Origin: Cyclobacteriaceae bacterium
Lineage (GTDB): Bacteria; Bacteroidota; Bacteroidia; Cytophagales; Cyclobacteriaceae
NCBI GenBank assembly: GCA_012033595.1
Contig: JAAUQL010000009.1
Span: forward strand, 1-64,000
Direction of reading: 5' to 3'
DNA: 64,000 nt
Shown: in pieces, positions 1,457 to 30,630 of the stretch
How the letters are laid out: every line of letters begins with the position of its first letter
Numbering within the stretch: position 1 is the first letter of the stretch
The notes under the pieces: model-generated
The model's input: the letters and a program-made list of their open reading frames with translations, nothing else
Databases searched by the model: none
What the model was told of the DNA's origin: nothing
Program-made: the position numbers and the translations under genes

Positions 1457-1890
1457 AATCAAAAATTTGATGCTACACCTTTAAGATCGAAAGGAAATAA
1501 AAAATGGTAGCAATGGAAAGGATGCGCACCATTTTTCGCTTTGGGCAACCATATTGTGGTTAGCGAGAAGCAGATTGATCCGTATTCGTGGAGATGGCAA
1601 AACGCCAACGCCAGCGACGTGGCTATCTCTGTCTATTTGCCACAACCCAGTTATTGCGGAATCCCGCTACCCCACTTTTTGGAAAAGGTGGAGGAGCCAA
1701 TAGCGTGCATTTCTGAAAATTTGCCGGTTTGAAACGCTCGAATAAAGAGGCTAATTAATTTGATCAATAAAGCCGGAAAAATGAAAAGAGCCATTCCCTG
1801 CTAATAAAGGGTTAGGGGGTTTGATTCCAAAAAGCCAGCTATTTTCGCAGGTGCAACTTAAGTTCGCCCCCTTTTTGGCGCCTATCGAGT

Positions 1891-1977
1891 TGAGCGCAGG
1901 CCTGACAAAACAGCAGGGGTGGGCTGGGATAGTGCGTGGAAGCATTGTGTTGTCTTGATTTTTCTTTGCTTACTTTC
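1891..1977 (+). repeat. Dispersed intergenic repeat, copy 1 (truncated at 3' end)
   Basis: It begins TGAGCGCAGGCCTGACAAAA and contains the core TGGAAGCATTGTGTTGTCTT followed by GATTTTTCTTTGC. The same core occurs at about 23293-23420 and 30497-30630. This copy lacks the terminal ACCGAA...AACTAA segment of the other two. It lies in a 533-base gene-free stretch (1457-1989). In the rest of that stretch I see only short ORFs without family character (1541-1732 plus; 1751-1945 minus, which merely reads through the repeat). Confidence 0.7.
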
Positions 1978-1989
1978 TAAGTATTGGAG

Positions 1990-3377
1990 CTATTCAGTTG
2001 GCACTAAGGATAGCTTCATTAAATCTCTGTGCTTCCACAGTTCATAGCCCATGATCGCGTACACAGGGACATATTCTAAAAGAAGCACCCAAAAATGCTC
2101 CTGAAAACCGGTACCGGAATAGCCGATGTATGACAGAAAAATCGTAAAAGACCAAATGAGCGGAAACCGATACCGGGAGAAAATGCTAAAGGCGACCAGT
2201 GGCACAGCGTACCATGGATGTATGATAGACGCAAAAGCGAAATAGATAAAAAACGGCCACAGAAATATACCGGGAAGATTTTGTTTCCGGACATTGGCCA
2301 ACATGGACAAGGCCACTATCATCAGAGCGCTGCACAGGGCCATCCAAAAAGAAGCCACCTGAATGATGTCCCACCCTTTGACCCAAAAGCCTATCGCTCT
2401 CACGATGTAAAATATACTTGCGTTAAACTCAAATTTCTGGAAGTACAGACCAAGGCTGGAACCCATTCCATGTATCAGCGCCGGACTGATAAAAGGCCAG
2501 AAGGTAGCAGCGGCAAAGATGCCCGTCAATGCATAAAAAATCCAGAGACGCGCAAACCGGATACGTCTGAAAAAAATGGCAACAGGATTAGCGGCGTCAG
2601 TTTGGTGGCTATAGCAAGGGCAAAGGCCATGGAGGCAAACCAAAGTTGATCCTTATGCAAAAAGTACACAGCCAACAGTACAAAAAATACCATGATGCCA
2701 TCGAAGTGGAGGTTGCCTGTGAGCTCGATGACAACCAGTGGGTTGAGGACATAATAATAAATATACTCGCGCTTGAGGTGGTGGAGACTGAGCAATTTTA
2801 TGATCATGAAAATACTTCCAAGCTCAGCCGCAAACACGAATATTTTCATGATGAACACGGCAATGTGGAGGCTACCCCCGGCAAAGTAAGTCGCCAGCCA
2901 GAAAACAAATTGGCTAACCGGTGGATACACGCTGAAATAGTCGGGAGAATTGAGCGCGGCAAATAACCTGACGTTTAGCTCGGGCAGGTTGATCAATGGG
3001 TTTTCGACGATTTCGCGCGGCGTGTACATAAACGGGTTTACCTGGTGTTTGGTCAGGATGCCATCCCAAACGAAACGGAAGAAATCGTCGGATAAGCTGG
3101 GGATGGAAAAAACAAAAAGTAGCCGGAATGCAATGCCAAAACCAATTAGATATTTGTAGCTGAGAATAGAGCGGGTCAGCAGCCAATACATTAAAAACAA
3201 TGCACTGTAGCTGCTTATTAATATGAGCGTATCCGTTCGCCGGGTAAAAAATGCAATTTGTGTGTATAGTGCAATAGACAAAAAGACCATGGCCAAAGAA
3301 AACAATTGCCCCGGCCGGCGTGTGGTGAGTTCGGTGATCCAGACCCTGAGGCCTACATATATTTTGCTATCGTCCAT
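1990..3377 (-). CDS. Polytopic membrane mannosyltransferase-like protein (GT87/DUF2029 type), frameshifted
   Basis: Two overlapping ORFs form one hydrophobic protein of about 460 residues with roughly 10-12 membrane spans. The N-terminal part ends ...KLTPLILLPFF and the C-terminal part resumes FRRIRFARLWIFYAL. One extra T in the coding-strand T-run (plus-strand A-run 2570-2576) joins them. The region around SLSDDFFRFVWDG with acidic residues in an early loop, the tract NPFMYTPREIVE and the motif NLHFDGIMVFF fit integral-membrane GT-C enzymes that use polyprenyl-phosphate sugars. I start at MDDSKIY (3377), overlapping the upstream GT2 gene by 25 bases. Coupling to that gene suggests joint lipid- or cell-surface glycan synthesis. 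The exact sugar is unknown. Confidence 0.75.
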
Positions 3378-20247: not shown

Positions 20248-23235
20248 ATGATGAAACCATTGACTAAAGCAAACTTTTTCTTGTGTCTGGCAGCCCTTGT
20301 TGTGCTGTTTTCATGCGTTTATGCAAAAGCATCTGATGTGGTCGAAGTCAGGCCGCTCACCAATCAGATTATTATGGTGCATTTCGACGATGGATATGCC
20401 ACTTACCATAAAATGGGTCAAAAAAGATCAAACGAAACGGTAACCGTAATACCTCTCGACCAAAGCAAAGCGTCACTGGCAGCAAGTTACAGTATCACAA
20501 GCCCCGATGATCCTGCTTTTTCCTCAGCCGCCAACCCTACCCAGGTAGCCAGAAAGACGAAGGGAACCGAGTTTACCTGGATATGTGAATGGGATGCTAG
20601 TGTGAACGGATGTGTGAATAAAGTCCATGACCATGTCAAAGAACACTGGGTGTATATTACGTTGCCAAATCCCATGAAATCCGGCAAAACCTACCTCATT
20701 CAAACCGGGTCGCTGGCCGGAAACGGCAACTCCTGGACTATCGACTACAATGATCATAGCACCCGGTCAGATGCGGTGCATGTAAACATACTGGGTTACA
20801 ATCCATCGGCACCGGCCAAGTTTGGCTACGTCTATCAATGGATGGGTGATGGGGGAGGTCTCGATCTGTCTTCCTTTGCCAACAATGATTTTTATCTGGT
20901 TAATCAAGCCACCGGGTCAGTGGACTTTTCAGGCAAGATAGCCTTCAGAAAATCCGCAAGCAACGACGAAACATCACAGACTGGCGACACACCTGACAAT
21001 AATTTCCTAGGTGCAGAAGTATATGAATGTGATTTTAGTACTTTCAATACAGAAGGAGAATATGTCCTCTCTGTTCAGGACATTGGCTGCTCTTTACCTT
21101 TCAAAATAAAAAATGATGTATTGCGCGATGCACACTACAATGCTGCCCGGGCTCTCTTCCACAACCGCTCCGGCATAGCCCTCGCACAACCCTATACCGA
21201 TTTTACCCGACCGGCACCCCACAATCCAAACAGCACGCCGGGATTTGCCGGAAAGCTTAAATATACCAGTTCTCGCTTTGTGGACTGGAAAAGTGAAGAC
21301 CATAGCGCCGAAGACAAGCCTGCCATAGAAGCGGGTATCAAAGGCGAATTGCCCACCTGGGGATGGTACCAGGATGCAGGCGATTGGGATGGATATTTTT
21401 CGCATCTGCGTGTGCCGGTATTGCTTATGCTCAGCTATGAACTCACACCCGAACACTATGCCGATGGCGACCTCAATATTCCTGAAAGCAACAACGGACT
21501 TTCTGATATGCTGGACGAAGCCCGCTGGTTGATACACTATTTCCAGCGTACCCGTAAGTTGATCAAAGACCAGGGTTATGGTACGGGTGGTATTGGCGCA
21601 CGGGTGGCTGGGGATTGGTTTGGCAGCGATACAGGTCCACAAGACGTAGGCACACCCTCATACAAAGATACAGACCGTACCTGGATTGTCTCTGGCGAAG
21701 ACCCATTCACCACCTATTTCTATGCCGGCTTATCAGCGCATTTTGCCACCATGCTCAAGAAGGCAGGAGCATCAGACCCGGACGGTATCAATTGGGAAAC
21801 CGAAGCCAGAGAAGCTTTTATATGGGCGGAAAATAATCTAAAGCCTGACGACACCAATCCGGACAAGGTTCATGGGCTGCGAATTTCAAACTACAGATTG
21901 TATGCAGCCGCGGCCTTATTCAGGTTGACAGGCGAGCAGGCCTTTCATGACCAGTTTGCCCTCGATGCTTCCGGCATCAGCAATGCTTCCGTATTTGCAG
22001 AAGACCAGCGTTGGGGAGCCTATGTCTATGCCCTGTTGCCCGATTCGCTACGTACCAATACAAGCTTACATAGCAAAATCGTGAATGCTGCACTGTCGTC
22101 AGCTGACCAAAAAACCGTCAAAAGCATCGAAGCACGAGCCTGCAGGTTTGCTGGCGATTTCTCTTTCCCCATGCTGATCGGTCAGGCTACCACCCCCTGG
22201 GTTTTTGAAGCAATGGTAGGCTACAAACTTGCCCTGGATAATGATCCGGCAAAAGCGGAGGAGTATCTGAAAAACATTCACACCACTGCCGATTATTTTC
22301 TTGGATGCAATCCGCTAAATATGGTATGGATGACCGGAGTGGGCGTGAAAAACCCGGGTCGAATTTTCCACATGGACTCCTGGTATAATGGCCGGAAAAA
22401 TGAAATGGTGCCGGGTATCACGCCCTATGGCCCCTGGCGCGATCAGCCCACCAGTGCCCTGGGACCGTGGGATGTGCAGTGGCCGTACAAAACCATCAGC
22501 CCGACACAAATCAACAAATGGCCAGGACATGAGCGCTGGTTTGGCAACTATACCTGCCCACTCAATGCAGAGTTTACCATTCATCAAAACACGGTGTACA
22601 GCGCCATTACCTATGGATTTTTGTCAGCGGTATCTGATGGGAGTTTCCAGGCCAATCGCCGGCCTACAGTAACCATTAAAACCCCAACACAAGGTGGCAC
22701 CACAGCAGACACGGTCGATATTACCGTGCAGGCTCAAGATCCCAATGGCGTAGCTGATATTGCCTGGGTGGAATACTATGATGGTTGGCACAAGATCGGA
22801 GAAAGTACCAGCGCGCCTTTTTCATTCCAATGGACTCAAGCCCCCAATGGCAACATAAAGCTGAATGCCAGGATTATGGACAAACGTGGGATGGTGAATT
22901 ATTCCGATACGGTAACTTTCAGTAATACCTCGGTGATCACCGGCTTCCACGTGGTACCAGTCGATGAATTTGACTTAAAAGTTTACCCAAACCCCGCAGA
23001 TCAAAAGCTGGTTTTTGACTATCAACTGCAATCTGAATCAGAGGTAAAAATCATCTTGTACGATATGTCGGGGAGTGTGGTCAGTGCACATGACATTATA
23101 AATATGCCGGGTAAAAACCAATACCACTATCATTTGCCGACGCCCTTGCGGCAGGGGATGTACATTTATAAGTTCAGTGCCAAATCCGAAGGAGAGTCCA
23201 CGGACAAAACCGGAAAAGTGGTTTTTTTGCGCTAG
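20248..23235 (+). CDS. Secreted GH9 endoglucanase with T9SS sorting domain
   Basis: A 995-residue modular enzyme predicted to cleave beta-1,4-glucan (cellulose-type or mixed-linkage). After a signal peptide comes a CelD_N immunoglobulin-like domain (HVNILGYNPSAPAKFGYVYQ, about residue 180). The GH9 (alpha/alpha)6 barrel has the catalytic-base motif QDAGDWDGYFSHLRV near residue 375 and the C-terminal acid segment CPLNAEFTIHQNTVYSAITY near residue 770. A second Ig-like domain follows (TPTQGGTTADTVDITVQAQD). A type A T9SS sorting domain (LKVYPNPADQKLVFDYQL) closes the protein at about residue 910. It is therefore exported through the Por system, of which PorD is encoded 4 kb away, and completes the fecR-susCD locus. 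Confidence 0.93.
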   Translation: MMKPLTKANFFLCLAALVVLFSCVYAKASDVVEVRPLTNQIIMVHFDDGYATYHKMGQKRSNETVTVIPLDQSKASLAASYSITSPDDPAFSSAANPTQVARKTKGTEFTWICEWDASVNGCVNKVHDHVKEHWVYITLPNPMKSGKTYLIQTGSLAGNGNSWTIDYNDHSTRSDAVHVNILGYNPSAPAKFGYVYQWMGDGGGLDLSSFANNDFYLVNQATGSVDFSGKIAFRKSASNDETSQTGDTPDNNFLGAEVYECDFSTFNTEGEYVLSVQDIGCSLPFKIKNDVLRDAHYNAARALFHNRSGIALAQPYTDFTRPAPHNPNSTPGFAGKLKYTSSRFVDWKSEDHSAEDKPAIEAGIKGELPTWGWYQDAGDWDGYFSHLRVPVLLMLSYELTPEHYADGDLNIPESNNGLSDMLDEARWLIHYFQRTRKLIKDQGYGTGGIGARVAGDWFGSDTGPQDVGTPSYKDTDRTWIVSGEDPFTTYFYAGLSAHFATMLKKAGASDPDGINWETEAREAFIWAENNLKPDDTNPDKVHGLRISNYRLYAAAALFRLTGEQAFHDQFALDASGISNASVFAEDQRWGAYVYALLPDSLRTNTSLHSKIVNAALSSADQKTVKSIEARACRFAGDFSFPMLIGQATTPWVFEAMVGYKLALDNDPAKAEEYLKNIHTTADYFLGCNPLNMVWMTGVGVKNPGRIFHMDSWYNGRKNEMVPGITPYGPWRDQPTSALGPWDVQWPYKTISPTQINKWPGHERWFGNYTCPLNAEFTIHQNTVYSAITYGFLSAVSDGSFQANRRPTVTIKTPTQGGTTADTVDITVQAQDPNGVADIAWVEYYDGWHKIGESTSAPFSFQWTQAPNGNIKLNARIMDKRGMVNYSDTVTFSNTSVITGFHVVPVDEFDLKVYPNPADQKLVFDYQLQSESEVKIILYDMSGSVVSAHDIINMPGKNQYHYHLPTPLRQGMYIYKFSAKSEGESTDKTGKVVFLR

Positions 23236-23292
23236 TAGCTCGTAGATTCATCAGTCGCTTATTGAGGTTAAGTCTATAATCGTAATTTTTAT

Positions 23293-23420
23293 ATGATTAA
23301 GCCAAGGGAAAATGAGCGCAGGCCCGGCAAAACAACGGGGCTGCGATGGGAAGTGCCTGGAAGCATTGTCTTATCTTGATTTTTCTTTGGCTTTCTTTTC
23401 ATCACCGAAAAGAAACTAAC
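23293..23420 (+). repeat. Dispersed intergenic repeat, copy 2
   Basis: This copy starts ATGATTAAGCCAAGGGAAAA, carries TGAGCGCAGGCCCGGC and the core GGAAGTGCCTGGAAGCATTG, and ends in a perfect 9-base inverted repeat TTTCTTTTC (23392-23400) / GAAAAGAAA (23407-23415) followed by CTAAC. It is followed by about 390 bases to the next gene in which I see nothing beyond short ORFs and a T9 homopolymer near 23603. Confidence 0.75.
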
Positions 23421-23809
23421 AACCGTGGCCTTTTAATGAAGTTTTGGTTGGCAAGTAGCTGACTGGCTCGCAGCTTGTGTAAAATGATTCGCTTCTCTTC
23501 ACCGGTTCCAGCGCAAGCTTTAGTAGCCTTAAGTACGAATATCCGTTCTAAAAAACAGATATCACCGCAACACAAGTCTCTGTTGTCTTACAGCTGCGAT
23601 GTTTTTTTTTCACACATCCACAATACAAATTTGCGATTAGGTGTTATGTATCTAAATTCGAAAAATACAAAAACACCGATAGGAGCATATCCAAGACTAG
23701 AGAGGTTATGTGCATCACAGAGGAAATGGATGTGCTTTTTATCTGTATTTTTTCTTTGTTTAGATTGTCTCCAATTATAATTTTGAAACATTCTGAAAAT
23801 AAGCATACT

Positions 23810-30449: not shown

Positions 30450-30496
30450 GTTTATATGCTTAGATCGGGCTCAGCTTAAACACCTAAAATTTTGTG

Positions 30497-30630
30497 ATGA
30501 TTAAACGGAAGGGCATGAGCGATGACCCAACTACACTTCGGGGGCGGGAAGGGAAGTGCCTGGAAGCATTGTGTGGTCTTGATTTTTATTTTGTTCGAAC
30601 ACCGAAGTCCGAATTCGGAACTAAAACGTG
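30497..30630 (+). repeat. Dispersed intergenic repeat, copy 3
   Basis: This copy starts ATGATTAAACGGAAGGGCAT, has the core GGAAGTGCCTGGAAGCATTG and GTCTTGATTTTT, then ACCGAAGTCCGAATTCGGAA, which contains the 12-base palindrome TCCGAATTCGGA (30608-30619), and ends AACTAAAACG. It aligns with copy 2 from the ATGATTAA start to the AACTAA end. The remaining roughly 300 bases before rseC are AT-rich with no gene I can support. Confidence 0.75.

Follow-up and report, generated by a model that had tools for sequence, protein, structure and literature searches.

The three intergenic repeats in the window (the whole stretch of 64,000 nucleotides of Cyclobacteriaceae DNA that was analysed) are the local representatives of a genome-wide family, and its members are probably non-autonomous mobile elements, MITE-like in the source genome and built on a conserved single-strand fold that combines a long-range stem (P1) with a triplex pseudoknot. 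A 27-base pattern, TGGAAGCATTGTNNNNTCTTGATTTTT, occurs at positions 1937, 23358 and 30561, always on the forward strand, and never in 100 shuffles of the window; the shared intergenic copies reported by an earlier, sequence-only reading are therefore real. That reading located the three sites correctly, although copies 2 and 3 reach past the ends it gave (to about 23266–23558, and from about 30468, respectively; Table 1). Its remark that all copies lie on the same strand holds for the window, but both strands are used across the source genome, and the uniform orientation of the trio is a local effect.

Copy 2 aligns by BLAST to positions 21–297 of the 298-nt consensus and matches the sequence profile with an E value of 1.1e-29; by direct reading, seven of its nine P1 pairs are left. 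Copy 1 matches the profile at 1881–1995 (E 8.6e-26, profile positions 15–128), its 5' flank is unlike those of copies 2 and 3, and it has lost the family hairpin, S2. The match of copy 3 (30496–30596, E 4.8e-19) covers only positions 5–105 of 143. A terminal inverted repeat had been proposed: the palindrome of copy 2 is indeed the conserved hairpin S2, whereas that of copy 3, TCCGAATTCGGA at about 30609–30620, falls in a 3' stretch that has diverged and is not matched by the family profile. A simple coding explanation is rejected, since the window copies have indels and most of their reading frames contain stops. Directly before the core, forms of GGCGC...TGCCTATCGA make up an alternative 5' module at source-genome loci L033:2763–2904, L046 and L049, and window copy 1 is among its carriers. 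Additionally, window positions 1600–1735 belong to a second dispersed repeat family (nine genome copies, 69–81% identical), which lies within about 160 bp of an element copy at three places (C202, C152 and C37).

Table 1. Positions of the element copies in the window and of the structural parts of copy 2
Feature	Position	Strand	Basis or remark
Copy 1, 5'-replaced and 3'-truncated	1888–1995	+	P1 and L1 kept; S2 3' strand lost
Copy 2, nearly full-length element	23266–23558	+	5' end GGTTAAG...; 3' end truncated
Copy 2, P1 5' strand GGCAAAACA	23326–23334	+	P1 established on 16 copies from relatives
Copy 2, P1 3' strand TGTCTTATC	23367–23375	+	P1 established on 16 copies from relatives
Copy 2, S1 5' strand TTGAT	23376–23380	+	Pairs with ATCA of the S2 loop; cross-phylum S1 covariation
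Copy 2, L1 pyrimidine strand TTTTCTTTG	23381–23389	+	Candidate third strand; parallel covariation of L1 and purine strand
Copy 2, S2 hairpin CTTTCTTTTC-ATCACC-GAAAAGAAA	23391–23415	+	Sequence and S2 covariation; S1 3' strand in loop
Copy 3, 5' end intact, 3' part diverged	30468–30591	+	Profile match and 5' boundary analysis

In the 5.75-Mb source genome the 11-mer core, TGGAAGCATTG, was counted 23 times, as against once for its reversed control, and by inspection 11 of these sites belong to element copies. A consensus search of the genome returned 41 places, and the genome-wide profile search that the sequence-only reading had proposed gave 62 matches at E<1e-3, so that the family comprises at least 62 copies (about 60) in this genome, with related families in many others. 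The guess of a genome-wide family is borne out: neither a family of three copies nor similarity limited to a short core, the outcomes named as contrary to it, was found. Most copies are decayed, being truncated or internally deleted, and are 71–94% identical to the consensus over the aligned part. The six congeners gave 2, 0, 1, 18, 0 and 0 profile matches, and a complete genome from another family, G040, gave 28; the 62 copies of the source genome represent a lineage-specific expansion.

In its full-length form, the source-genome element is about 390 bp and runs from GGGTCAGCTTAAAA to AGCA(A/G)ACCC, with short, imperfect terminal inverted repeats (GGGTCAGCTT... / ...AGCA(A/G)ACCC; motif GGGTCWGCT). 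Of 32 copies, 10 have the dinucleotide TA directly before the 5' end, and 6 of 11 copies have it directly after the 3' end; TA is rarely present at both flanks of one decayed copy and is also frequent at −6/−5 (15 of 32 copies), so that the exact element boundary is uncertain. It is these short inverted ends and TA-rich flanks that make the element MITE-like in the source genome. A congener, G004, carries a form of about 345 bp that starts with GGATCAGTCGG and ends with TTGATCC (GGATCA ends), and in G040, where many copies are nearly identical, conservation is limited to a core of about 140 bp and ends resembling GGGTCWGCT or GGATCA were not recognised. As the ends differ by lineage, a single transposase cannot explain everything.

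P1 is a 9-bp long-range stem of the core, found by comparing the cores of relatives. Its strands, GACAAAACA/TGTTTTGTC in the source genome and GGCTCAATA/TATTGAGCC, GAACAAACG/CGTTTGTTC and GAGCCAAAT/ATTTGGCTC elsewhere, diverge strongly among genomes, yet pairing is always kept: in 16 copies from relatives all 144 cells are paired, with both sides changed in six of the nine pairs. The covariation score is 0.628, compared with 0.127 for shuffled alignments (none of 500 as high) and at most 0.133 for slid controls. RNAalifold returned no structure for 30 source-genome copies because these are decayed and too alike; it was the comparison across genomes that revealed the fold. A GCCC/GGGC stem crossing P1 is plausible; on testing, no convincing support for this stem was found.

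Directly after P1 lies an H-type pseudoknot, with its parts in the order S1 5' strand, L1, S2 5' strand, S1 3' strand (in the loop) and S2 3' strand. L1 reads TTT(T)CTTTG, the two strands of S2 are [GC]TTACTTTCTTT.. and ..AAAGAAAGTAA[GC], and the foot of S2 is CTTTG[GC]TTAC. S2 has 12–13 bp, and is longer than its counterpart in the SAM-V and guanidine-III riboswitches. The search pattern specified L1 and the central part of S2 and left all other parts unconstrained. Among 144 instances, the unconstrained bases bracketing S2 are C/G in 76 and G/C in 66, with two exceptions, and the S2 loop is complementary to the bases 5' of L1, with a mean of 4.56 contiguous pairs compared with 3.46 when shuffled (maximum 3.77 of 200). 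S1 and S2 covary in pseudoknot order: in a gap-free alignment of 30 distinct instances the score is 0.262 against 0.084 shuffled (none of 500 as high), and the closing pairs of S2 are GC in 18 and CG in 12 without exception.

The sequence of L1 changes in step with that of the purine strand of S2, and the two match in parallel orientation. The purine–L1 pairs include AAAGAAA-TTTCTTT, AAAAGAAA-TTTTCTTT, AGAGAAA-TCTCTTT, AAGAAAA-TTCTTTT, AAAAAA-TTTTTT and AAAAAG-TTTTTC. The parallel match sum is 137, compared with a mean of 114 and a maximum of 127 in 1000 shuffles of the partners and with 121 for the antiparallel arrangement, and the observed value is lowered by the automatic parser, which misassigned S2 in a few rows (e.g. 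L054 and L082). On the diagonal of a table of T-run against A-run lengths, 85 and 28 of the 144 instances fall on 3/3 and 4/4, respectively. The parallel pattern is that expected of U.A-U and C+.G-C major-groove triples, and L1 is a candidate third strand of the folded strand, whether this be RNA or single-stranded DNA. Single mispairs within S2 are G.T in nine cases and A.C in none, which identifies the folding strand as the one carrying the pyrimidine L1. Recent copies in G040 have folding z-scores of −3.9 and −4.3.

The pseudoknot pattern was found in at least 120 stretches of GTDB species genomes. The matches listed include Burkholderiales, relatives of Lysobacter, Neisseria, Pseudomonas, Methylobacter, Desulfuromonadales, Selenomonadales, Clostridia, Lentisphaeria, Ignavibacteriae and Bacteroidota, and the pseudoknot alone occurs in Pseudomonadota, Bacteroidota, Bacillota and others. 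Exact pseudoknots number 274 in Burkholderia sp. Ac-20365, 43 in a Selenomonas MAG and 16 in Mucilaginibacter conchicola; the reversed pattern is absent from all 12 genomes counted. The Burkholderia pseudoknots are frequently arranged head to head in pairs, at a spacing of about 500 bp. A composite unit of about 680 bp from Burkholderia and Paraburkholderia (L151:5600–6280) has two outward-facing pseudoknots and further inverted sequence around a central palindrome, with at least 40 matching places per megaplasmid in several megaplasmids, and one Paraburkholderia unit (L351:13236–14906) is interrupted by an additional 1.1-kb segment that carries ORFs of IS30-like transposases. Carriage by phages is rejected, with only three exact matches among 2.9 million viral contigs.

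The setting of the copies was assessed from simple longest-ORF calls, not gene annotation, and the flanking-gene counts are to be read as such. Copies are intergenic and mostly adjoin the 3' ends of genes, and only 2 of 62 copies in three Bacteroidota genomes lie between divergent genes; with divergent promoter regions avoided, a riboswitch-like placement in the 5' leaders of a gene set was not observed. In the Selenomonas MAG (L356–L375 and L391–L395) the folded strand runs antisense to the two flanking genes at 21 of 23 co-directional sites, unlike the Bacteroidota copies, of which 14 are antisense and 22 sense; in the MAG, the distance from the 3' end of the pseudoknot to a stop codon on the opposite strand is often no more than about 150 nt. 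Within the source genome, 77.9% of the P1, S1 and S2 cells of 30 copies are paired, compared with 77.0% when shuffled, with no excess covariation. Pairing that is no better than shuffled among resident copies, together with a P1 that is unbroken between genomes, points to selection on the spreading lineage rather than on the copies in place, which is the behaviour of a mobile element and not of a locus-maintained regulator. We infer that a trans-acting enzyme would recognise the folded strand, either RNA or DNA that is single-stranded during replication or transposition, and would copy or move the element into gene-free DNA; after insertion the copies would decay, because the fold would serve spreading and not the adjacent host gene.

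The earlier guess of a REP/MITE-like family or a noncoding RNA has a basis in both of its halves, namely, the MITE-like ends and the conserved folded core. That the elements are structured noncoding RNA genes, or 3'-UTR or attenuator elements, related to TwoAYGGAY RNA and selected locus by locus, with the pseudoknot as a protein- or exonuclease-facing 3' domain, seems to us unlikely. TwoAYGGAY (RF01731) is listed as probably RNA, in gamma-Proteobacteria and Clostridiales (PMC2864571). In Psychromonas, the pseudoknot begins no more than about 10 nt beyond each of two Rfam matches to TwoAYGGAY (63.5 and 59 bits), once as the variant AGAGAAA/TCTCTTT, and a partial match lies directly upstream of a Pseudomonas pseudoknot copy; in the copies seen, the Rfam match stops before the pseudoknot. 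The adjacency to TwoAYGGAY favours an RNA, as do the retained G.T pairs, the folding of the recent G040 copies and the precedent of RNAs that fold into an H-type pseudoknot with a major-groove triplex (PMC6061858, PMC5696562). Against locus-by-locus selection stand the uncompensated decay in the source genome, the patchy occurrence among congeners, the varied neighbouring genes, the antisense orientation in Selenomonas and the 274 copies in a single genome.

Mobilisation of the REP/BIME kind, in which a RAYT (Y1/HUH) transposase works on single-stranded hairpins, would suit intergenic, palindromic copies, the paired arrangement in Burkholderia, which recalls BIMEs, and the finding that every tested genome has a Y1_Tnp match, but it is distinctly improbable: none of the Y1_Tnp genes in G000, G004, G040 and G352 adjoins a copy, the 274-copy genome has one weak match only (26.6 bits), no GTAG/CGTC tag was seen at the hairpin foot, and copies in G040 show no strand bias by contig half (+6/−7 and +6/−7, with the origin assumed near the contig start). 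Since, moreover, the element measures 150–390 bp and not the 20–40 nt of a tagged REP hairpin, a REP of the RAYT type, one form of the earlier guess, is not supported. An ordinary MITE of a TA-targeting transposase, with a captured structured passenger irrelevant to mobility, would account for the short inverted ends, the flanking TA and the GGATCA-ended form in G004; it is very unlikely, given that the core reaches high copy number without such ends in G040, Selenomonas and Burkholderia, that the structure is kept across phyla, and that the search for a partner transposase yielded none with matching ends.

Other mobilisers were sought. Reverse transcriptase fails as a universal candidate, none being detected in the 43-copy genome G356 or the 16-copy genome G363 (both drafts). 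IS630-type transposases are abundant in G040, but their ends there (AGTAAGAGTACACAATTAAG...) are unlike those of the element; the source genome has one, a DDE_3 locus without matching ends. No inverted pair of terminal motifs was found near a transposase in the draft source genome, where, with one mismatch allowed, the terminal motif is about as frequent as its control (47 compared with 45), and the interval between split copies on C88, considered as an autonomous element, holds host genes only. Collinear Paraburkholderia megaplasmids gave no clean empty site, the copies being shared or the regions replaced.

We retain the non-autonomous mobile element with a conserved single-strand fold as the probable explanation, and there is a substantial chance that it represents a new class. 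Against this reading count the failure to find an empty site, a target duplication at any single insertion or an autonomous partner, the lineage-specific ends and the strong antisense bias in Selenomonas. A broader proposal, which we hold possible rather than probable, is that of an undescribed cross-phylum class of mobile elements that move via a triplex-stabilised pseudoknot of one strand, with lineage-specific 5' domains (P1 in Bacteroidota, TwoAYGGAY in gamma-Proteobacteria) on the same 3' pseudoknot. A covarying fold present in up to hundreds of copies per genome and in several phyla would be a new class of mobile nucleic acid or else a missing half of the orphan TwoAYGGAY, and its compact sequence signature makes it searchable and testable. 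Short intergenic ORFs lying over the elements may be artefacts where they are annotated as hypothetical proteins. A search of paper texts for the motif sequence gave no relevant match in the open literature, and the element may already have been described under a different name.

Like REP/BIME elements with their RAYTs (PMC3733652, PMC2817692), the element is intergenic, palindromic and of high copy number, with inverted pairs in Burkholderia, but it is longer, pseudoknotted and without the tag motif or an adjoining Y1 gene. With bacterial MITEs (PMC10969869; for Bacteroidota, PMC4596501) it shares small size, non-coding sequence, dispersal and, in the source genome, short inverted ends and TA-rich flanks; it differs in its conserved cross-phylum structured core and in that no partner insertion sequence was found. 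An H-type pseudoknot with a major-groove triplex is known from the SAM-V (PMC6061858) and guanidine-III (PMC5696562) riboswitches, which share its order of parts (S1-L1-S2-S1'-S2') and likewise place L1 on S2 as a third strand, whereas the element is multi-copy, is not upstream of genes, decays in place and comes without evidence of a ligand. As to TwoAYGGAY, which is filed as cis-regulatory and not as a repeat, no Rfam match was found in the window and none to RF01731 in 23150–23650 at E<=5; the gathering score of that model was reached only in the Psychromonas and Pseudomonas relatives, no Rfam family covers the pseudoknot in the stretches scanned, and the 5' domain of the Bacteroidota copies (P1) differs. 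However, its matches in Psychromonas and Pseudomonas have the same pseudoknot directly on their 3' side, and the host ranges overlap. In Psychromonas (L254:1315–1720), two TwoAYGGAY RNAs stand in tandem, each with its own 3' pseudoknot, and this pair suggests that the Rfam model is short of a 3' domain.
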